Both the position numbers and the translations under genes were made by a program. Under the pieces are notes generated by a model. The model saw nothing but the letters and a program-made list of their open reading frames with translations. It had not been told where the DNA came from and made no database searches. From Acetivibrio alkalicellulosi (lineage in GTDB: Bacteria > Bacillota > Clostridia > Acetivibrionales > Acetivibrionaceae): a stretch of DNA of 64,000 nt. The stretch lies in contig VLTH01000002.1 of NCBI GenBank assembly GCA_008125075.1, positions 2,666,843 through 2,730,842 of the forward strand, read 5' to 3'. Below are positions 3,906 through 20,690 of this stretch, one piece after another (positions within the stretch are counted from its first letter, which is position 1; every line of letters begins with the position of its first letter).

Positions 3906-4679
3906 ATGAAAAAGTCGATTTGCATAGTTTCATTGATAGCTATTATGACAATTTTCATTGTCGGATGTCAAAAAGAAAATGCAGAGCAAAATAAGTCAAC
4001 TATACCTAGTCAAAGTACCACAAGCATTGAATCTGAAGTACCGATGTTTATTGACGTTAAGGATGCCTTAGCAATTTTGAAGCAAAGGCCTGTTGGTACT
4101 GATCCATGGAAGATATATTATGCCGGCTGTGATTATATTTTTGCGACTTATAATTTTGGAGTAGAACTCATATTTAGATACAATATAAAAGAAAATACTA
4201 TTGACCAAGCACTTGATGTAAGTTGCTTGCATAAAGATATTAAGGAGCCTTCTTCTACAAACTTCTTTTTTACTACTGATGGATTAGTGGCTTTTTTCGT
4301 TGTTGGGAAATCCATAAACTACAAATCAGAAGTCTCTCAAAATTGGTATAAAGCCGAGTTTGAAAAGAAAAGCATTGAACTGGTGACAAAAAAAGATGAA
4401 GATTTTAAACTGCCATCGGATATGGAATATTATAAACAAGAGAAGTATGGCACAGCCGCACAAAAATATCTTGAAAAATCTAAAGAAAACCCATCTTTGC
4501 CGAAAGTGCCTGATTGGAGCACAGTTGCTCAAATCGACAACGATACATTTTGCATTATTATGTTGAATGATACTAAAAATGGCTCGCCGGGAGCCGGATA
4601 TTATTACTTCAAATTTATTGTCGTTAATGTGGCTCAAAATAAAATCTTACAAGAATATCGGATAGATTCAGCCGAATAG
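3906..4679 (+). CDS. Predicted lipoprotein of unknown function
   Basis: The product is 257 residues from the ATG at 3906. I prefer this to the in-frame ATG at 3885 because AGGAG lies at 3890, between the two, at normal spacing for the later start. The N-terminus MKKSICIVSLIAIMTIF ends in the lipobox IVGC, so the protein should be lipidated and held on the outer face of the membrane. A Ser/Thr/Gln-rich linker follows (NKSTIPSQSTTS), then a globular domain with no motif I recognise. Its genomic position between an insertion sequence and a recombinase remnant suggests it arrived with mobile DNA; that is an inference. Confidence 0.7.
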   Translation: MKKSICIVSLIAIMTIFIVGCQKENAEQNKSTIPSQSTTSIESEVPMFIDVKDALAILKQRPVGTDPWKIYYAGCDYIFATYNFGVELIFRYNIKENTIDQALDVSCLHKDIKEPSSTNFFFTTDGLVAFFVVGKSINYKSEVSQNWYKAEFEKKSIELVTKKDEDFKLPSDMEYYKQEKYGTAAQKYLEKSKENPSLPKVPDWSTVAQIDNDTFCIIMLNDTKNGSPGAGYYYFKFIVVNVAQNKILQEYRIDSAE

Positions 4680-11997: not shown

Positions 11998-12015
11998 ACT
12001 TACAAAGACCTCCAC

Positions 12016-12147
12016 AGAAATAATATTCTCTATTAAGTATTATAACCATAAATAATATGGATTACTAGAAGTATTGCATTCTTAGCTCTTTTATTACATA
12101 GGAATTAATATGATGATGATCTAGAGTTACAAACTTAGAGCCTCTTA
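12016..12147. other. Intergenic spacer between divergent genes
   Basis: AT-rich spacer upstream of the ATPase/nuclease gene (minus) and before the duplicated leader (plus). I see no gene in it. Confidence 0.4.
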
Positions 12148-12404
12148 AACATGCTATTTTTTATCAGTTATTTATAAAATAATGACTTAAGTCACTATTT
12201 TTCATAATTATAAAATGATATAATTAGAATCAAAAAATATCATAGTTTTAATATATCACTCTTCTCAAAAAGCGTCTTATAACTTAAGCGTTATTAGACA
12301 CTTTTTGAGAAGAATAGTACGCTCATGCATTAAAAATAATCACTCAAAGATAGAATAACTATGATATAAATATTTATTTTTTTAATTGAAGGGGGATAAT
12401 TATA
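12148..12404 (+). promoter_or_regulatory. Duplicated leader, copy 1 (promoter, palindrome, long hairpin)
   Basis: This ~255-base leader is nearly the same as the one at 14891-15162. Shared parts in order are: AACATGCTATTTTTTA; the perfect 12-bp palindrome TGACTTAAGTCA (12183-12194); TTTTTCATAAT...AAATGATATAAT, a likely -10; ATATCATAGTTTTA; a hairpin with 17-base arms (12261-12277 and 12296-12312); CTCATGCATTAAAAATAAT; and a G-rich Shine-Dalgarno. The hairpin has no T-run after it, so it looks like a 5' UTR structure rather than a terminator. Confidence 0.75.
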
Positions 12405-14864
12405 ATGAAAAAAAAATTTATACTTGTGGCTATTGTACTACTTAGTTTTCTAGCGTTAAAATCTGTCGCTATTGTTTACGGAAATGATTTGACTATATGG
12501 GAAAAAAACAATACTGTTCAAGTTTACAAGCTTTTTTCTATTACAAAAGGTGAAAACACTTATATTGCAGTTGGTGAAAATGGTTATATTAAAACTTCTA
12601 TTGACAGGCAAAATTGGGTAAGTAGAAATTCTAATGTTCCTTATGATTTGTTAGACGTTACATATGGAAACCCAGGTTTTGTAGTAGTACATGAAAAAGG
12701 AATAATTTTCTCTAGTGATGCAATCTCATGGAGTAAAGTTTTAGATACATCTAATAGTATTACCGCTGTTGCTTGGAATGGAAATTTGTATGTAGCTGTA
12801 GGGAATAATGGACAAATTTTTATTTCAACAAATGGTGTAGAATGGAACAAATCAAAGTTTGTTCACTCTGGCAATTTCACTTCTATTGCTAGTAATGGCC
12901 ACGACTTTGTTGCTGTAGACGACAAAGGAATAATAATATATTCAAATGATGGCGAAAACTGGACAAGTATTAGAGCAGACGGCTATTTTGGTAAATTAAA
13001 CTCAGTTTTTTGGGATTCAAATCGTTTTATCATTACTGGTGATTTAGGTTATGTATCCAGTTCAAAGGATTTACTAAAATGGACGCGTTTAAACTCAAAT
13101 CTGTCAATAAATAATCCAGTTGGCGAAAATACTTCTTTATTACGTCACATGGCATATGATGGAGAGTATTACTATATACTTTTAGGAAGAACAGGTATAC
13201 TTAAAACTAATTTTACTGATTATTGGATCCAGTCTTACTCTGGTATGAATCTAAATAATATAGTCTTTTATGATGGCTATTTGCTTGGAGCAACTAGTTT
13301 TGGAAATGTTACAGTAAAAAACATTAACTCAAACTCATGGGAACCATATACTAGAGTGTATAACTCAAATTTTAGTTCTATAGCTTGGAATGGACAAAGA
13401 TATGTAGTTACAGGAGGGATAATAAATCCAAATGGAAGCATTAGTTCAAGTGGAATTTGGACTTCTGAGGATGGATTATCATGGGATTGTGTTCATCCTG
13501 AATCTTATACGTTAGAAGGTGTTATATGGGATGGCAAACAATTCATTGCTTTTGGTTATAAAACCATAATGAGATCAACTGATGGATTGGTTTGGGAAAC
13601 TGATACTAATGACTTTGATAATAGAATTTTGTCAATCGAATACAATGGAAGCAAATATGTTGCAACAGATGTTATTGGTAACATATGGAATTCTGATGAT
13701 TCTGTTAATTGGAAAATTGTTTTAAGTCTTAAAGATAACAACTTTATCAGTGATGTTAAGTGGGATGGTAAAAAGTTTGTTGGTGTAGGTACTCAAATAT
13801 ATACCTCCTTAGATGGAGTTAATTGGATGAAATGTCTTGATAATGATAATTTACCTAAAGGCAACGCATATCTTACATGGTTAACAAATATTGAATTTAA
13901 CGGCAATACCTATGTAGCCGTAGGGCTTTATGGAACAGTTGTTACATCTCTAAATGGGCTAGATTGGGAAGTAATAGATTTAGGTACTTCTACAAGCTTT
14001 TATACTATATGTTGGGATGGAGAAAACTTTATTTTACCTAGTGATGGAGTTTACTATACATCAAAAGATGGTACCAACTGGACTAATAATAGTTATATTG
14101 GCAAAGATATCCTTGATATAATTAGAACTGAAGGCAAATATATTGCTATTGGAAAAAATAATTTGATACTAACTGGCAAAGATTCAAAAATAATAGATAT
14201 ATACTTATCGACAAATAGAGTTGTAAAGCCCGAAGGCAGTATTTTTGTTTTAAATTTATACGCAGTACTTGATAATGGTAAAACAGAAAATATATCAAGG
14301 CTAGCAAATTGGACTTCAAGTAATTTATCAGTTGTTTCTATAAATTCAGGACAAGGAACAATACTCCAGCCTGGGAAAGCTTTTATAACAGTTACATATG
14401 AAGATTTTTCTAAGACAATTGATGTTTTGGGTATAAAAGGTAAAATAATAGAAATAACTGTAGGCAAACCTGTAATGACAGTAAGAGATTATTTATTCAG
14501 TAGGAATGCTAATATTATAGAGATTGACCCCGGGAGATCTACTAAATCTATTATCATAAATGGTAGAATGCTTTTACCCATAAGAGCTATAGTAGAAGAA
14601 TTAGGAGGCCAAATAAAATGGGATGCTGCTACTAAGAAAGTTACTATTAGTATGTATGATCAAAATATTGTTTTAACTATAGATAAGCTTGAAGCAGAAG
14701 TAGATGGAGTAGTGAAAAAAATGGATGTGGCACCAATTTTGCATAACGGAAGAACAATGCTGCCTTTGAGATTTATATCTGAAAACTTAGGGTTAGAGGT
14801 AGACTGGGATCATGAAACTCAGACAGCATCCATAAAGAATTTTAATTTAGATTCTGACTATTAA
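12405..14864 (+). CDS. Secreted beta-propeller protein with Ig-like and copper-amine-oxidase-like domains
   Basis: The product is 819 residues. Residues 1-28 are a signal peptide. Residues ~30-600 are at least a dozen propeller blades of the type YIAVGENGYIKTSIDRQNW and VAVGNNGQIFISTNGVEWN, the Asp/Asn-G-x-x-W pattern of BNR/Ycf48-like propellers. Residues ~600-680 look like a bacterial Ig (Big2) domain (VLNLYAVLDNGKTENISR...TWTSSN-type core). Residues ~690-815 are a Cu_amine_oxidN1-like domain, seen as MLLPIRAIVEELGGQIKWD and MLPLRFISENLGLEVDWD. That domain is common on clostridial surface proteins and is not an oxidase by itself. There is no dockerin or anchor motif. GGGGG precedes the ATG. 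A binding role at the cell surface is inferred. Confidence 0.8.
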   Translation: MKKKFILVAIVLLSFLALKSVAIVYGNDLTIWEKNNTVQVYKLFSITKGENTYIAVGENGYIKTSIDRQNWVSRNSNVPYDLLDVTYGNPGFVVVHEKGIIFSSDAISWSKVLDTSNSITAVAWNGNLYVAVGNNGQIFISTNGVEWNKSKFVHSGNFTSIASNGHDFVAVDDKGIIIYSNDGENWTSIRADGYFGKLNSVFWDSNRFIITGDLGYVSSSKDLLKWTRLNSNLSINNPVGENTSLLRHMAYDGEYYYILLGRTGILKTNFTDYWIQSYSGMNLNNIVFYDGYLLGATSFGNVTVKNINSNSWEPYTRVYNSNFSSIAWNGQRYVVTGGIINPNGSISSSGIWTSEDGLSWDCVHPESYTLEGVIWDGKQFIAFGYKTIMRSTDGLVWETDTNDFDNRILSIEYNGSKYVATDVIGNIWNSDDSVNWKIVLSLKDNNFISDVKWDGKKFVGVGTQIYTSLDGVNWMKCLDNDNLPKGNAYLTWLTNIEFNGNTYVAVGLYGTVVTSLNGLDWEVIDLGTSTSFYTICWDGENFILPSDGVYYTSKDGTNWTNNSYIGKDILDIIRTEGKYIAIGKNNLILTGKDSKIIDIYLSTNRVVKPEGSIFVLNLYAVLDNGKTENISRLANWTSSNLSVVSINSGQGTILQPGKAFITVTYEDFSKTIDVLGIKGKIIEITVGKPVMTVRDYLFSRNANIIEIDPGRSTKSIIINGRMLLPIRAIVEELGGQIKWDAATKKVTISMYDQNIVLTIDKLEAEVDGVVKKMDVAPILHNGRTMLPLRFISENLGLEVDWDHETQTASIKNFNLDSDY

Positions 14865-14890
14865 CTTTCACTTTGTTGTTAGATTCTAAT

Positions 14891-15162
14891 AACATGCTAT
14901 TTTTTATTATTTATAAAAACAATGACTTAAGTCACTATTTTTCATAATTTTTAAATGATATAATGAGAATCTAAAAATATCATAGTTTTAAAATGTTACT
15001 TTCTATATCACTCTTCTCAAAAAGTGTCTTATAGCTTAAGAGTTATCAGACACTTTTTGAGAAGAATAGTACCTCATGCATTAAAAATAATAACACAGAG
15101 ATAGAATAATAAAAATGATAACTATGATGTAAATATTAATTAATTATTTAGGGGGAATTAAA
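14891..15162 (+). promoter_or_regulatory. Duplicated leader, copy 2
   Basis: This is the sister of the leader at 12148-12404, in the same orientation, before the LRR-dockerin gene. It has the same 12-bp palindrome TGACTTAAGTCA (14923-14934), the same AAATGATATAAT block and a hairpin with perfect 17-base arms (15013-15029 and 15048-15064). A small insertion and scattered substitutions separate the copies. The preceding gene ends 27 bases before it. Confidence 0.75.
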
Positions 15163-16875
15163 ATGGTAAAAATCAGTAAAAAAAGAATTTCATTGGCAAT
15201 TGTATTTATTGTTTCACTTCTATTATTTTCTTTTATAGGAGCTAATACTTTTGCACAAACAACTCAATCGGAAGATGTAATATATTTCGAGGACAAAAAT
15301 TTTGAACAACGGGTTCGCTATATAATTGGTAAGTCTGAAGGAGACATTTTAAAAAGTGACGTATTAGATATTTATGAATTAACCTACCAAAACTCTAAAA
15401 GTGTATTAGACATTTCTCCTTTGGAACATTTTACAAATTTAACCTATTTAGATTTATCTTTTAATAATATAAAAGATATTTCTGTTATCAGCAATCTAAC
15501 AAATTTAACCCATTTAGATCTATACCATAACGAAATAAAAGATATCTCTCCTCTTTCTACTCTTACAAATTTAACCTATTTGGATTTATCTATTAATAAA
15601 GTAGTGGATATTTCTTCTATTGGTGATTTAATTAATTTGGAGCATTTACTGTTTAACGACAATAAAACTAATGACATTTCTGCCCTGAGCAATCTAACTA
15701 ATTTAACACATTTAAATTTATCCTTTAATGAAATAGAAGATCTTTCTCCTCTTTCTACTCTTACTAATTTAAAACATTTAAATCTATCTTATAATAAAAT
15801 GAATGATATTTCTGCTATTGCTGATTTAGTAAATTTAGAGCATTTAATTCTTTACGGCATTGAAACTAATGATATTTCACCAATTAGCAATTTTTTAAAC
15901 TTAGAATCACTAATTCTATCACATACTAAAATAATTGATATTTCAATTGTTAGTAATTTTTCTACCTTAAAAACCCTGGTCTTATATAATTGTGAAATAA
16001 GTGACATTTCACCTATTGCTCATAACACAAACCTTTTAAATTTAGATTTGGCAATTAATAATATAGAAGACATTTCTGCTCTTAGTGAACTTACTAAACT
16101 AGAGAGCTTAAATCTAGATGCAAATATGGTACTATGTGATATTTCTTACCTTAGCAACCTTACTAATTTAAGCCATCTCCATTTAGGACATAATCGTATT
16201 AGTGATATTTCTGCTCTTAGTGAACTTACTAAACTAGAATTTTTAGATTTACAATATAATAGTATAAGTGATATTTCTCCTCTTAGTGAACTTACTAATA
16301 TAGGTGTCTTATATATAAATGGAAATGAAATACTTAGTGATATTTCTTATCTTAGTAATCTTACTGATCTAGACTTCCTCTATTTATCAAATAATAATAT
16401 AAGTGATATTTCTCCTCTTAGTGAACTTACTAAACTAGAATATTTATATTTAACCCACAATGAAATAATCGATATTTCACCCCTTGCTAACCTTGAACAG
16501 CTAGAAAGCTTAAATTGTGATTTTAATAATATAGAAGACGTTTCTCCTCTTACCAATCTTACTAATTTGATTTTCTTGTATCTGAATGGAAATCAAATTA
16601 CAGATTTTTCACCTGTTTCTTCGGTCTATAATAATCTTATAGATAAAGACTTTTATCTAACTTTGCCAGGAGATCTAAATGGTGATGGTAAAATTAACTC
16701 TATTGACTTAGTTTTATTAAGAAGATATATATTAGGTATTATTGATATCCTTCCAGTTGAAGATGAGTTACATTCTGCTGATTTAAATAATGACGGAGTT
16801 ATTAATTCAAGTGACTATATTATATTAAGAAGATATATCTTAAATATAATTAATGAATTACCTTTTTTAGATTAA
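15163..16875 (+). CDS. Secreted leucine-rich-repeat protein with C-terminal type I dockerin
   Basis: The product is 570 residues. The signal peptide covers residues 1-32 (hydrophobic LAIVFIVSLLLFSF). About twenty internalin-type LRRs of 22 residues fill residues ~80-495 (NLTNLTHLDLYHNEIKDISP type). The last 70 residues are a dockerin: two Ca-binding loops, DLNGDGKINSIDLVLLRRYI and DLNNDGVINSSDYIILRRYI. Dockerins bind cohesins of a scaffoldin, so the protein should be part of the cellulosome or cell-bound through it. LRRs bind proteins or glycans, so it may be an adaptor rather than an enzyme; no catalytic domain is present. GGGGG precedes the ATG. The gene stands alone, ending at a strong bidirectional terminator. 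Confidence 0.88.
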   Translation: MVKISKKRISLAIVFIVSLLLFSFIGANTFAQTTQSEDVIYFEDKNFEQRVRYIIGKSEGDILKSDVLDIYELTYQNSKSVLDISPLEHFTNLTYLDLSFNNIKDISVISNLTNLTHLDLYHNEIKDISPLSTLTNLTYLDLSINKVVDISSIGDLINLEHLLFNDNKTNDISALSNLTNLTHLNLSFNEIEDLSPLSTLTNLKHLNLSYNKMNDISAIADLVNLEHLILYGIETNDISPISNFLNLESLILSHTKIIDISIVSNFSTLKTLVLYNCEISDISPIAHNTNLLNLDLAINNIEDISALSELTKLESLNLDANMVLCDISYLSNLTNLSHLHLGHNRISDISALSELTKLEFLDLQYNSISDISPLSELTNIGVLYINGNEILSDISYLSNLTDLDFLYLSNNNISDISPLSELTKLEYLYLTHNEIIDISPLANLEQLESLNCDFNNIEDVSPLTNLTNLIFLYLNGNQITDFSPVSSVYNNLIDKDFYLTLPGDLNGDGKINSIDLVLLRRYILGIIDILPVEDELHSADLNNDGVINSSDYIILRRYILNIINELPFLD

Positions 16876-16985: not shown

Positions 16986-17867
16986 TTAAGGTCTCAATGG
17001 AAATTGAGATTTTCCTGGTATATTTGTTGTTTCAATTAGTTCTATATCTTCATCAATAAGTGTTTGCCCATACATATCTGTAATCCTAAAAGTAAATGGT
17101 CCACGTCCCATACCAGATTCTTTTACAAAATAGTTATAATACTCCCTTGGTACTTCTTCAAATTCACCTTCGGAATTTAAGTATTCAAATTTTGCTATAG
17201 GATAACGATGATTCCTAATTTGTACAGCTGTCCAGTATGGATTGCTTCCTATCTTGAAGTGATATATTACAGGACCTTCAACATCTGCTTCAACTATCCT
17301 CCAATAGATAGGTACCCTGCCTAAAATGGGGTTAGCAATAAGAGGAAATACACTTTCACTAAAGTCAATGTCTCCTGGATTTCCTTCAGGAAGCCTGTCT
17401 GTTATAATAACCCTTACAGTCCCGTCAGGCCCTGTAGCTTCAACACATGCTCCACTTATTTCAGAGTTACCATAGTCATATGTATTCATTGCAGCTACGT
17501 AGTAAATACCATTAATAGGTATTGCAGCATCAAATGAAGAGTTTCCACCACTACCATCAGTTCCGTAAAAAGTACCTCCTCCAATTCTAATCATGCCTAA
17601 CACAGCGCGTCTCATTAAAATATAGTCTATAGAGTCAAGTACGTCATCTCCATTAATATCAGCAGCAATTTTCCCATATGAATCTTTAATTTCACTAATG
17701 CCCAATATGTGCCTTCTTAAAAGAACAAGATCTGTAGAGTTAATTTCTCCATCATGATTAATGTCTCCGTACCTGTGAGTCATAGGTATGTAGCCAGCAA
17801 ATGAAAAGGTAGTCCACAATAAACTTAACACAGTTGCAACACACACAATTAATAATTTTTTCAACAC
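16986..17867 (-). CDS. Dockerin-bearing expansin-like protein
   Basis: The product is 293 residues. A signal peptide (LLIVCVATVLSLLWTTFSFAG) is followed at ~33-95 by a type I dockerin (DINHDGEINSTDLVLLRRHI and DINGDDVLDSIDYILMRRAV). A short Gly/Ser linker leads to an expansin module. Its DPBB part has YYVAAMNTYDYG, SGACVEATGPDGTV and VIITDRLPEGNPGDIDFS, with the conserved Asp in TDRLPE. Its second, CBM63-like part has YWTAVQIRNHRYPIAKFEY, YNYFV and GPFTFRITDMYGQTL. Bacterial expansins loosen cellulose without hydrolysis; Acetivibrio clariflavus carries a similar cellulosomal expansin. Start: GTG at 17867 or TTG at 17864, both behind AAGGGGG. Confidence 0.9.
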   Translation of the reverse strand: MLKKLLIVCVATVLSLLWTTFSFAGYIPMTHRYGDINHDGEINSTDLVLLRRHILGISEIKDSYGKIAADINGDDVLDSIDYILMRRAVLGMIRIGGGTFYGTDGSGGNSSFDAAIPINGIYYVAAMNTYDYGNSEISGACVEATGPDGTVRVIITDRLPEGNPGDIDFSESVFPLIANPILGRVPIYWRIVEADVEGPVIYHFKIGSNPYWTAVQIRNHRYPIAKFEYLNSEGEFEEVPREYYNYFVKESGMGRGPFTFRITDMYGQTLIDEDIELIETTNIPGKSQFPLRP

Positions 17868-18334: not shown

Positions 18335-19108
18335 CTAAAATGTTATTGCCTTTTTCATATTACGTACATACTCCACAACATGTGGAACACAATTTTCACC
18401 ATATTGCCCTATAATCTTTACAATTGCACTTCCCACTATTACACCATCAGAATATTTTATCATTTCTGCTGCCTGCTCTGGTTTAGAAATTCCAAAACCA
18501 ATGGCACAAGGAATATCTTTAACCTCTTTTACCACCTTAATCATTTCTTCCACCTTATTGCCAATATCCTGACGAACTCCAGTAACCCCCATTGATGATA
18601 CACAGTATATAAATCCAGTTGCTTCTTTAGAAATTTTTTGTATGCGACTTAGAGAAGTAGGAGCAATCATTGATATAAACTCAACACCATACTTTGATGA
18701 GTAGGGAATAATCTCATCTTTTTCTTCAAATGGAATGTCAGGTATAATAACTGCTGAAACGTCAAGTTCTTTACATGCTTTCATAAACCTTTCTGTTCCG
18801 TAAGTAAATACAGGATTGGCATAAGTCATAAAAGCTAATGGAACATTACAAGTTCTACGAATATTTGAAACGGAATCAAATATTTTATCAGTGGTTGTTC
18901 CACCTGCTAGAGCACGATAGTCAGCTTCTTGAATCACAGGGCCCTCTGCCACAGGATCTGAAAAAGGTATTCCCAATTCAATTAAATCCGCACCTGCTTC
19001 AGCCATTTTTAATACCAATTCTTCAGTTATTTTAAGCGAAGGGTCACCTGCTGTAATAAATGGTATAAAAGCCTTCTTATTTTCAAAAACTTGTTTTAAT
19101 CTACTCAT
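18335..19108 (-). CDS. trpA: Tryptophan synthase alpha chain
   Basis: TrpA cleaves indole-3-glycerol phosphate to indole and glyceraldehyde-3-phosphate; indole is channelled to TrpB. The product is 257 residues, the usual size. Visible motifs are [11 protein letters not shown] at the start, [21 protein letters not shown] with the catalytic Glu (LELG type) and Asp (FSD), and [13 protein letters not shown] with [12 protein letters not shown] for phosphate binding. The start overlaps the trpB stop by eight bases and has AGGGGG upstream, so the two are coupled. No other trp genes lie beside it. Confidence 0.96.
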
Positions 19109-20285
19109 AAATATTTTCCCCCTTGTAACGTGCTATTGCAGCAACATCCTTGTCTCCTCTTCCTGAAAGACAAATTACAATTATTTTATCTTTATCCATA
19201 GTAGGTGCAAGTTTTTTAGCATAAGCAACTGCATGAGAACTTTCTATTGCAGGAATAATACCTTCAATTCTTGAAAGATATTCAAAGGCTTCAACTGCTT
19301 CATCATCAGTTATTGCAACATATTCTGCTCTTCTAAGATCTTTTAAATTAGCGTGTTCTGGCCCTACACCTGGATAATCAAGACCAGCAGAAATTGAGTA
19401 AACAGGTGCGATTTGTCCATATTCATCCTGACAAAAATATGACTTCATTCCATGGAAAATACCAACAGTCCCCAATGTCATGGTTGCAGCAGTTTTTTCA
19501 GTATCAACACCATGCCCAGCTGCTTCACAACCAATAAGCCTTACGCCTAAATCATCAATAAAGTCGTAAAAGAGGCCTATGGCATTGCTACCGCCTCCAA
19601 CACAGGCCATTAAGACATCAGGCAAGCGTCCTTCTTTTTCTAGTATTTGTTTTTTAACTTCTATACCAATAATACTTTGAAAATCTCTTACAATAGTTGG
19701 AAAAGGATGAGGCCCCATTACAGACCCTAGTACATAGTGAGTATCATGAACTCTGTTAGTCCATTCACGCATTGTTTCATTTACTGCATCTTTTAAAGTT
19801 TGTGTGCCACTTGTAACTGCATGTACCTTTGCTCCTAAAAGCTCCATTCTATATACATTAAGTGCCTGTCTCTCAGTATCCTCTTTACCCATAAATATCT
19901 CACATTTCAAACCTAATAGGGCTGCTGCTGTTGCTGTTGCAACTCCATGTTGCCCTGCGCCTGTCTCTGCAATTACACGAGTTTTACCCATATATTTAGC
20001 AAGCAGTACCTGTCCTAATACGTTATTGATTTTATGAGATCCTGTATGATTTAGATCCTCACGCTTAAAGTAGATTTTAGCGCCACCTAAATCTTTGCTC
20101 ATTTTCTCTGCATAATAAATAATTGACGGTCTACCTGCATAGTTTTGAAACAATTCATTTAACTCAGTTACAAATTTCTCATCATTCTTAAAATAATTGT
20201 ATGACTTTTCAAGTTCATTAACTGCATTCATAAGTGTTTCAGGAATATACTGTCCACCATGAATTCCAAATCTCCCCTTCGACAT
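19101..20285 (-). CDS. trpB: Tryptophan synthase beta chain
   Basis: TrpB condenses indole with serine using PLP. The product is 394 residues, the normal TrpB1 length. The PLP lysine is in [11 protein letters not shown], the phosphate loop is [12 protein letters not shown], and [15 protein letters not shown] is the substrate loop; CLSGRGDKD closes the C-terminus. AGGAGGGG lies upstream of the ATG at 20285. The gene is led by a T-box riboswitch and followed by trpA. Transcription should therefore respond to charging of tRNA-Trp. Confidence 0.97.
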
Positions 20286-20424: not shown

Positions 20425-20690
20425 AAAAAGCTTTTATCCCATAAAAGGGACAAAAGCTATAGCTTCTGCGGTACCACCCAAATTGACGATAAACGCCCAC
20501 CTTAGTAAGTATACTATCATATACACTCTCTGATAACGGACAGAATCTCCCGTAAGCGCCTACTTTTAAAATTTCGGGCTTCCCTCACAAGTCCATTCAG
20601 AATAACACTTGTAACTACCTTTCAGCAAAATAGTAGCTCTCTTTTATACAAAAAATTATTCTTACTATTCTTGATCATCGGTTTATACTA
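20425..20690 (-). promoter_or_regulatory. Tryptophan T-box riboswitch leader of trpBA
   Basis: On the minus strand the T-box GGGTGGTACCGCAGAAGC is at about 20463-20481, preceded by Stem I elements (AAAAGTAGGCGCTTACGG and others). A TGG specifier sits in GAATGGACTTG with the codon at 20593-20595, matching tRNA-Trp. The terminator follows: AAAGCTTTTGTCCC...GGGATAAAAGCTTTTTTAG, about 20424-20458. Uncharged tRNA-Trp should favour the antiterminator and switch trpBA on. Confidence 0.93.

Follow-up and report, generated by a model that had tools for sequence, protein, structure and literature searches.

Which regulatory logic could place two unrelated genes for secreted proteins behind almost the same leader? 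In a stretch of 64,000 nucleotides of the Acetivibrio alkalicellulosi genome (contig VLTH01000002.1, positions 2,666,843 to 2,730,842; hereafter the window), a gene for an 819-amino acid (aa) protein and a gene for a 570-aa protein with leucine-rich repeats (LRR) and a dockerin are each preceded by a leader of about 255 bases, which holds a short palindrome, an extended -10 element, a structured 5' untranslated region (UTR) and a ribosome-binding site (Table 1). We suggest that the two leaders are copies of one activator-dependent promoter with its 5' UTR. The reading that we favor, and regard as reasonably probable from sequence comparison, is that the palindrome acts as an operator at which an activator stimulates transcription, with a response regulator of the NarL/LuxR class, referred to here as RR-A, as the leading candidate for that activator.

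When leader 2 was searched against the whole genome, it matched leader 1 with 83% identity over query positions 2-252 (E 1.5e-72). The two leaders align colinearly from AACATGCTATTTTTTAT through the AGGGGG ribosome-binding site, and column identity is 89% between the predicted transcription start and the ribosome-binding site. Leader 2 has two 12-base stretches that are absent in leader 1, and substitutions are scattered along the alignment, so that the "nearly identical" of the initial annotation is a little strong as a wording for what is clear homology. As that annotation had described, both leaders contain the palindrome TGACTTAAGTCA, the block AAATGATATAAT and a long hairpin, in the same order. 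It had also called the two downstream genes unrelated, in agreement with the absence of any Pfam family common to the two proteins; its "propeller" label for the 819-aa protein, in contrast, was not established by the Pfam search, in which a DUF6242 match stayed below the cut-off. Because leader 2 begins directly behind the 819-aa gene, the local order is leader-gene-leader-gene, which suggests the duplication of one leader, either along with a gene or onto one. Homology of this degree before unrelated genes supports the view that a regulatory cassette, consisting of the promoter and the whole 5' UTR, was copied onto an unrelated gene.

The whole-genome search with leader 2 found no third full-length copy, the check that had been proposed for other secreted genes, and no full-length match is present in the 39 other genomes searched. 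What recurs are modules of the leader: partial matches in the same genome cover the palindrome-promoter part alone (e.g., C1:88870-88920, C-numbers being contigs) or the hairpin alone (e.g., C1:565151, C3:259625, C2:2548105, and C2:1320880), and the two modules exist independently of each other. Conservation in relatives, the other proposed check, is likewise confined to the operator-promoter half, which does recur, including before an LRR-dockerin gene of another species.

To compare genomes, we refer to that of A. alkalicellulosi (5.3 Mb) as G000, to that of Herbivorax sp. ANBcel31 as G002, and to those of other relatives as G001, G003-G006, and G009; L-numbers are fetched loci, and the control for each count is the reversed palindrome sequence. 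The palindrome TGACTTAAGTCA occurs six times in G000 and its control not once. With at most one mismatch, GTGACTNNAGTCAC is found 25 times in G000 (6 for the control), 24 times in G002 (4), 24 times in G004 (3), and 9 times in G003 (2), while G001, a genome that is 55% complete, has one site and one control match. Seven of the 24 sites in G004 are a single sequence, which lies inside a transposase-like frame in both copies read, and the net count in that genome is nearer 17. The 25 sites of G000 fall into 18 clusters, 16 of them outside open reading frames of at least 120 aa. Tandem sites, too, are seen repeatedly, at distances of ~22 and ~32 bp; with up to two mismatches allowed, an array upstream of a C39 exporter gene (L124) has four sites, and one upstream of a response regulator gene of G004 (L136) has six. 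Taken together, these counts support an operator-like palindrome that is over-represented in four members of the genus.

A pattern scan of GTDB genomes returned 20 stretches, seven of which were read in detail, the other 13, mostly from distant phyla, being taken as chance. Three of those read come from Herbivorax sp. ANBcel31, one from Pseudobacteroides cellulosolvens (with a cohesin/dockerin-like gene, judged by eye), and the remainder from clostridial metagenome-assembled genomes, two with tandem dyads and one without any sign of a promoter. The string TGACTNNAGTCA does not occur in the literature searched, and the papers listed include none on this motif in these bacteria. In the portion of the text available for the Clostridium thermocellum DNA affinity purification sequencing (DAP-seq) study (PMC8457756), whose motif logos are figures, AGTCA is absent and TGACT appears in a primer only; the accessible part of PMC6780208 has no occurrence of "regulat."

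A second line of evidence is the distance between palindrome and promoter. We counted 107 terminal site-orientations (each terminal site may enter in both orientations) from 42 sources, namely the window and 41 fetched loci of G000, G002, G003, and G004, with an extended -10 defined as TG plus at least five of the six bases of TATAAT. G009, G001, P. cellulosolvens and five sites of the transposase-like G004 sequence were excluded, two such sites being kept; the loci surround sites from palindrome-only searches, although a pattern with the -10 had been the first to bring up some of these loci. An extended -10 lies at offset 22 in three cases and at offset 23 in seven, compared with six in total over the remaining 59 offsets, and both window leaders are among these ten. 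For neither TATAAT of the window did the promoter scan list a -35 partner (at least four of six bases at 16-18 bases). In several promoters, the gene-proximal site is a degenerate GTGACTAATGGCAC located 22-24 bases before a -10. An operator at -42, an extended -10 and no -35 together form the layout of an activated promoter. Each leader would then be an activator-dependent promoter followed by a structured 5' UTR. On this view, a dimeric regulator may occupy the dyad GTGACTNNAGTCAC around position -42, next to the extended -10 (TGNTATAAT), which has no -35, and so recruit RNA polymerase. Since the palindrome is over-represented in four congeners and in several promoters keeps the same distance to an extended -10, the proposal of the initial annotation that one regulator serves both window genes is well supported by these comparisons; the operator is not private to the pair, however, as its 18 clusters in the genome indicate.

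Besides these promoters, an operator-promoter copy at another locus of the same genome (L020 ~1501-1665; C1:87238) is seemingly split between palindrome and -10 by ~100 bases, and, by eye, the insert resembles sequence that flanks the LRR-dockerin promoter in G002 (L045).

The genes downstream of the sites are partly the same in different species. Six kinds of gene with sites are common to two species: a C39 peptidase exporter (G000/G002, 91% protein identity), a UbiA prenyltransferase (83%), a hybrid kinase (71% for G000/G002 and 66% for G000/G003), a WXG100 protein (G000/G004, 71%), a secreted family of 275/277 aa (34%), and LRR-dockerin proteins, which in G000 and G002 share 42% identity over 313 aa that span the repeats and the dockerin. 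Similar N-termini are also seen in another secreted pair (L134, 1138 aa, and L220), which we do not regard as homologous, as BLASTP gave no match. Further genes with sites in G000 include those for a dockerin-, cohesin- and VWA-domain protein (at least 1263 aa), an fn3-domain protein (at least 1138 aa), a protein that resembles a lipoprotein but has no Pfam match, and a DUF2339 membrane protein; G002 has a further secreted dockerin protein with a site. We read this set as rich in exported proteins, several of the signal peptides having been judged by eye. Small bacteriocin-like genes with leaders of the double-glycine type (by eye) are also found downstream of sites, at L142 2638-3870 (-) in G002, after a 155-aa gene, and at L137 3624-3875 (-) in G004.

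As to the direction of copying within the window, the nearest relative of the 819-aa protein outside its genome (eight genomes searched) matches the last 220 residues alone, at 56%, and has no site in front. The operator of the LRR-dockerin gene may thus be the older one, and the 819-aa gene would have gained its leader by copying; the leader would have been duplicated with, or in front of, the 819-aa gene, which would have brought the 819-aa protein under an operator of the LRR-dockerin type. In G003 and G004, several genes, including that for WXG100, have near-identical multi-site promoters (L140, L207, L208, and L211), which may be another sign of promoter copying.

Which protein could bind these sites? 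RR-A (C2:2122220-2122864 in G000) has Response_reg and GerE domains, and the three best of the eight PDB sequences found for it are VraR chains (best E 3.1e-33); none of the 25 NCBIfam matches shown attained an equivalog cut-off. In G000, the sites are followed by a gene for a 1,764-aa kinase, a gene for a 200-aa protein without a Pfam match, and then RR-A. The kinase combines a Ser/Thr-kinase domain (Pkinase) with AAA_16, TPR, GAF, HisKA_3, and HATPase_c, the last being just below the cut-off in G000 and above it in G002, and its LiaS match is far below the cut-off. RR-A directly follows a 1,712-aa kinase in G002, again with sites in front of the operon; in G003, the kinase and its sites lie at a contig end and RR-A on another short contig; and in G004, RR-A lies ~0.6 kb after the six sites. 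The largest arrays read (three to six sites, at most two mismatches) precede the RR-A operon or gene. Across the family, the five of 14 genomes with an RR-A ortholog (at least 65% identity) hold 33 exact sites and six control matches, compared with two and two in the other nine. The palindrome core GACTNNAGTC is compatible with GHCTnnAGDC, the core of the CesR motif TCAGHCTnnAGDCTGA, a 16-bp inverted repeat according to the accessible part of PMC4447274, and VraR motifs are placed 32-34 bases upstream of transcription starts in the portion seen of PMC6560143. From these observations, we consider it likely that a NarL-class regulator of some kind binds the sites, and name RR-A itself, a protein of the VraR/LiaR kind, as the best single candidate, a choice that is tentative and a little short of even. 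RR-A would be phosphorylated by the hybrid kinase of its own operon, before which several operators stand.

In three species, the operators that precede the RR-A or kinase operon are followed by a short frame (L164 12165-12380 (-), L139 3711-4067 (-), and L136 ~4330-4560 (+)), possibly a small peptide gene, in which a common FDVLLI stretch is seen by eye.

Several observations weigh against the favored reading. G009 shows no enrichment of GTGACTNNAGTCAC (4 vs. 8 for the control with at most one mismatch, 2 vs. 3 exact), although it has an RR-A ortholog (67%), and the fetched stretch of its RR-A operon has no site. A TATAAT-like hexamer is present at 22-24 in only 28 of the 107 cases, and when TG is not required a second peak appears at 5-7 (23/107), so that the plain hexamer is indecisive and the extended form alone gives a clean signal. 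The window pair accounts for two of the ten extended cases and near-identical G003/G004 promoters for another four, which leaves about six independent cases of the spacing. The outer bases of the site (GTG..CAC) are unlike those of the CesR motif. One site in C1 (C1:711517) and one in G002 (C68:65366) are terminator-like, with the palindrome next to T-runs. Nor is RR-A the sole candidate: in G000 and G009, sites before a DUF2339 gene adjoin a second response regulator, RR-B, which is 46% identical to RR-A. Finally, a site (GTGACTGAAGTCAT) lies within the 5 kb of one of the four CRP-family loci of G000, at a distance of 1.4 kb from the CRP-family gene itself and upstream of a different gene.

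The regulon logic would be the same if the binder were another NarL/LuxR response regulator, chiefly RR-B, or several paralogs, an alternative that we consider unlikely. RR-B lies beside a kinase with a 7TM region (HisKA_7TM, with a LiaS match below the cut-off), the sites lie between RR-B and the DUF2339 gene, and further NarL-class paralogs are present; moreover, the stretches RIKNILSEIL in RR-A and TVKNTISHIL in RR-B, which we take to be the recognition helices, have K-N in common. G009, however, carries RR-B without genome-wide enrichment of sites, its single RR-B site overlaps the end of the RR-B frame and may therefore be due to chance, and the position of the largest arrays before RR-A weighs against RR-B.

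A CRP/FNR-family activator as the protein that binds the dyad appears quite improbable. A TGA-N6-TCA geometry and a class II position are typical of that family, and the dyad has this geometry and lies at about -42; CRP-family genes above the cut-off number four in G000 and one in G002. Apart from the locus mentioned above, however, the CRP-family genes of G000 have no site in their 5-6 kb, and neither does the sole CRP-family protein above the cut-off in G002 in its 6 kb, in a genome with 24 sites. CRP-family genes are found in 13 of the 14 family genomes, including genomes without sites. The central CT..AG of the dyad, which is conserved, makes up the core of CesR sites and is not known as a part of CRP/FNR sites.

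Least probable of all is that the leaders are a mere duplicated stretch with a dispersed repeat, in which neither palindrome nor hairpin serves in regulation, or the palindrome acts as a terminator: the hairpin does belong to a dispersed repeat (see below) and two palindromes elsewhere are terminator-like, but a terminator at the window copies was rejected, as 12000-15200 has no terminator-like site and the palindrome RNA folds weakly (-3.6 and -5.3 kcal/mol, with 25 and 14 of 200 shuffles as good), leader 1 follows a divergent gene and so has nothing upstream to terminate, and the enrichment and the -10 spacing in several species oppose a lack of role.

The 5' UTR is a different matter from the operator. 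Both leaders fold far better than shuffled sequence (12229-12375, z -9.0; 14971-15149, z -7.25; 0 of 200 shuffles as good in each case). In the minimum-energy fold of both, the hairpin is enclosed by an 11-pair stem, formed by ATATCATAGTT with AACTATGAT plus two more bases, that spans about +7 to about +137 or +160; the leader RNA is thereby predicted to be one closed domain with the ribosome-binding site outside. The arm pair ATATCATAGTT...AACTATGAT, considered as possible ends of a mobile element, occurs, among the fetched sequences, in these two leaders only. The arms of the hairpin, in contrast, recur elsewhere in G000 and also in G002, G005, G006, and G009, and a 154-base repeat member has 70 matches in G000, where many elements are split and give two. 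The hairpin is a short member of this abundant dispersed repeat, and its description as a dedicated shared element does not hold. The repeat itself measures 80-150 bases in G000, with TTCTCAAAAAG arms and a GCAGCTTCCGCTGCGATA-type tail (e.g., L014 1452-1605). The hairpin would have come as such a repeat and now lie within the closed 5'-terminal domain; with the ribosome-binding site left free, it would at most stabilize the message, which on the predicted fold is the likeliest effect of hairpin and 5' UTR, if there is any. One paired position that differs between the two leaders is a T-A pair in leader 2 and a C.A mismatch in leader 1 (by eye), and thus gives no compensatory support for the pairing. 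A riboswitch was rejected, given that Rfam, run over the whole window at the gathering threshold, has no match in the leaders and that the ribosome-binding site lies outside the structure.

Table 1. Features of the two leaders and the genes behind them (positions in the window).
Feature	Position	Strand	Basis or remark
Leader 1	12148..12404	+	Sequence alignment; operator, promoter, structured 5' UTR, ribosome-binding site
Operator 1, TGACTTAAGTCA	12183..12194		Palindrome; centre about -42.5 from predicted start
Extended -10 TGATATAAT, leader 1	12216..12224	+	TATAAT at 12219-12224, within AAATGATATAAT; predicted start about 12231
5'-UTR domain, leader 1	12237..12365	+	Closed by ATATCATAGTT / AACTATGAT arms
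Hairpin, leader 1	about 12261..12312	+	Short member of dispersed TTCTCAAAAAG...CTTTTTGAGAA repeat family
Ribosome-binding site AGGGGG, leader 1	12390..12395	+	Read from sequence
819-aa protein gene	12405..14864	+	Signal-peptide-like start (by eye); C-terminal Cu_amine_oxidN1 domain
Leader 2	14891..15162	+	Start 26 bases past stop of 819-aa gene
Operator 2, TGACTTAAGTCA	14923..14934		Palindrome
Extended -10 TGATATAAT, leader 2	14956..14964	+	TATAAT at 14959-14964, within AAATGATATAAT; predicted start about 14971
5'-UTR domain, leader 2	14977..15128	+	Closed by arms identical to those of leader 1
Hairpin, leader 2	about 15013..15064	+	Second copy of dispersed-repeat hairpin
Ribosome-binding site AGGGGG, leader 2	15150..15155	+	Read from sequence
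570-aa LRR protein gene	15163..16875	+	Leucine-rich repeats and dockerin type I; signal-peptide-like start (by eye)

Elsewhere in the window, a dockerin type I gene (293 aa) at 16986-17867 (-) is convergent to the LRR-dockerin gene. The only Rfam match of the window is a T-box leader at 20443-20687 (-) with 116 bits; it lies on the strand of a PALP-family gene and a tryptophan synthase alpha gene (18335-20285), which it directly precedes.

Returning to an activated operator with RR-A as its leading candidate, both window genes would be members of a single regulon in which exported proteins and exporters are prominent. It is possible, though a little less likely than not, that this is an undescribed, genus-wide regulon of Herbivorax-type cellulolytic clostridia, in which a VraR-like regulator and a giant Ser/Thr-histidine hybrid kinase would link LRR-dockerin and cohesin-dockerin proteins, a WXG100 (type VII) system and C39-type peptide export to a signal that is intracellular or comes from the envelope, and which would recruit genes through copied operator-promoter-leader cassettes. 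To our knowledge, the control of non-catalytic dockerin proteins, WXG100 proteins and peptide export in cellulosome clostridia has been little studied. With the motif come a concrete putative operator, the genes listed downstream of it in four species, and a two-component system as candidate regulator, and the window leaders clearly exemplify the copying of a promoter, along with its entire 5' UTR, onto an unrelated gene.

Among known systems, the closest resemblance is to the LiaR/VraR/CesR envelope-stress regulons of Firmicutes: RR-A is of the NarL/LuxR class and closest to VraR among solved structures, the core of the site is compatible with that of CesR, as far as the CesR text seen goes, though the outer bases of the half-sites differ, and the site lies just upstream of the promoter, as the VraR text seen describes. 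Unlike in those regulons, the partner kinase is a Ser/Thr-AAA-TPR-GAF-histidine kinase fusion, no LiaF was recognized in the RR-A operon, the downstream genes include those for dockerin, cohesin, WXG100 and C39-exporter proteins, and tandem sites are spaced by 22 or 32 bp. Hybrids of Ser/Thr and histidine kinase of the HstK type are cyanobacterial; the kinase found here similarly joins its Pkinase, AAA_16, TPR, GAF, HisKA_3, and HATPase_c domains in one protein, but is clostridial and shares an operon with a NarL-class regulator. The control of cellulosome genes by SigI/RsgI likewise involves secreted proteins with dockerins and acts through an alternative-sigma promoter, whereas the leaders described here have a dyad operator and a housekeeping-type extended -10. 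Finally, like repeats of the MITE (miniature inverted-repeat transposable element) or REP (repetitive extragenic palindromic) kind, the leader hairpin shares its TTCTCAAAAAG...CTTTTTGAGAA arms with many copies in the genome; unlike those other copies, it is short, lies inside a 5' UTR and has been duplicated with the leader.

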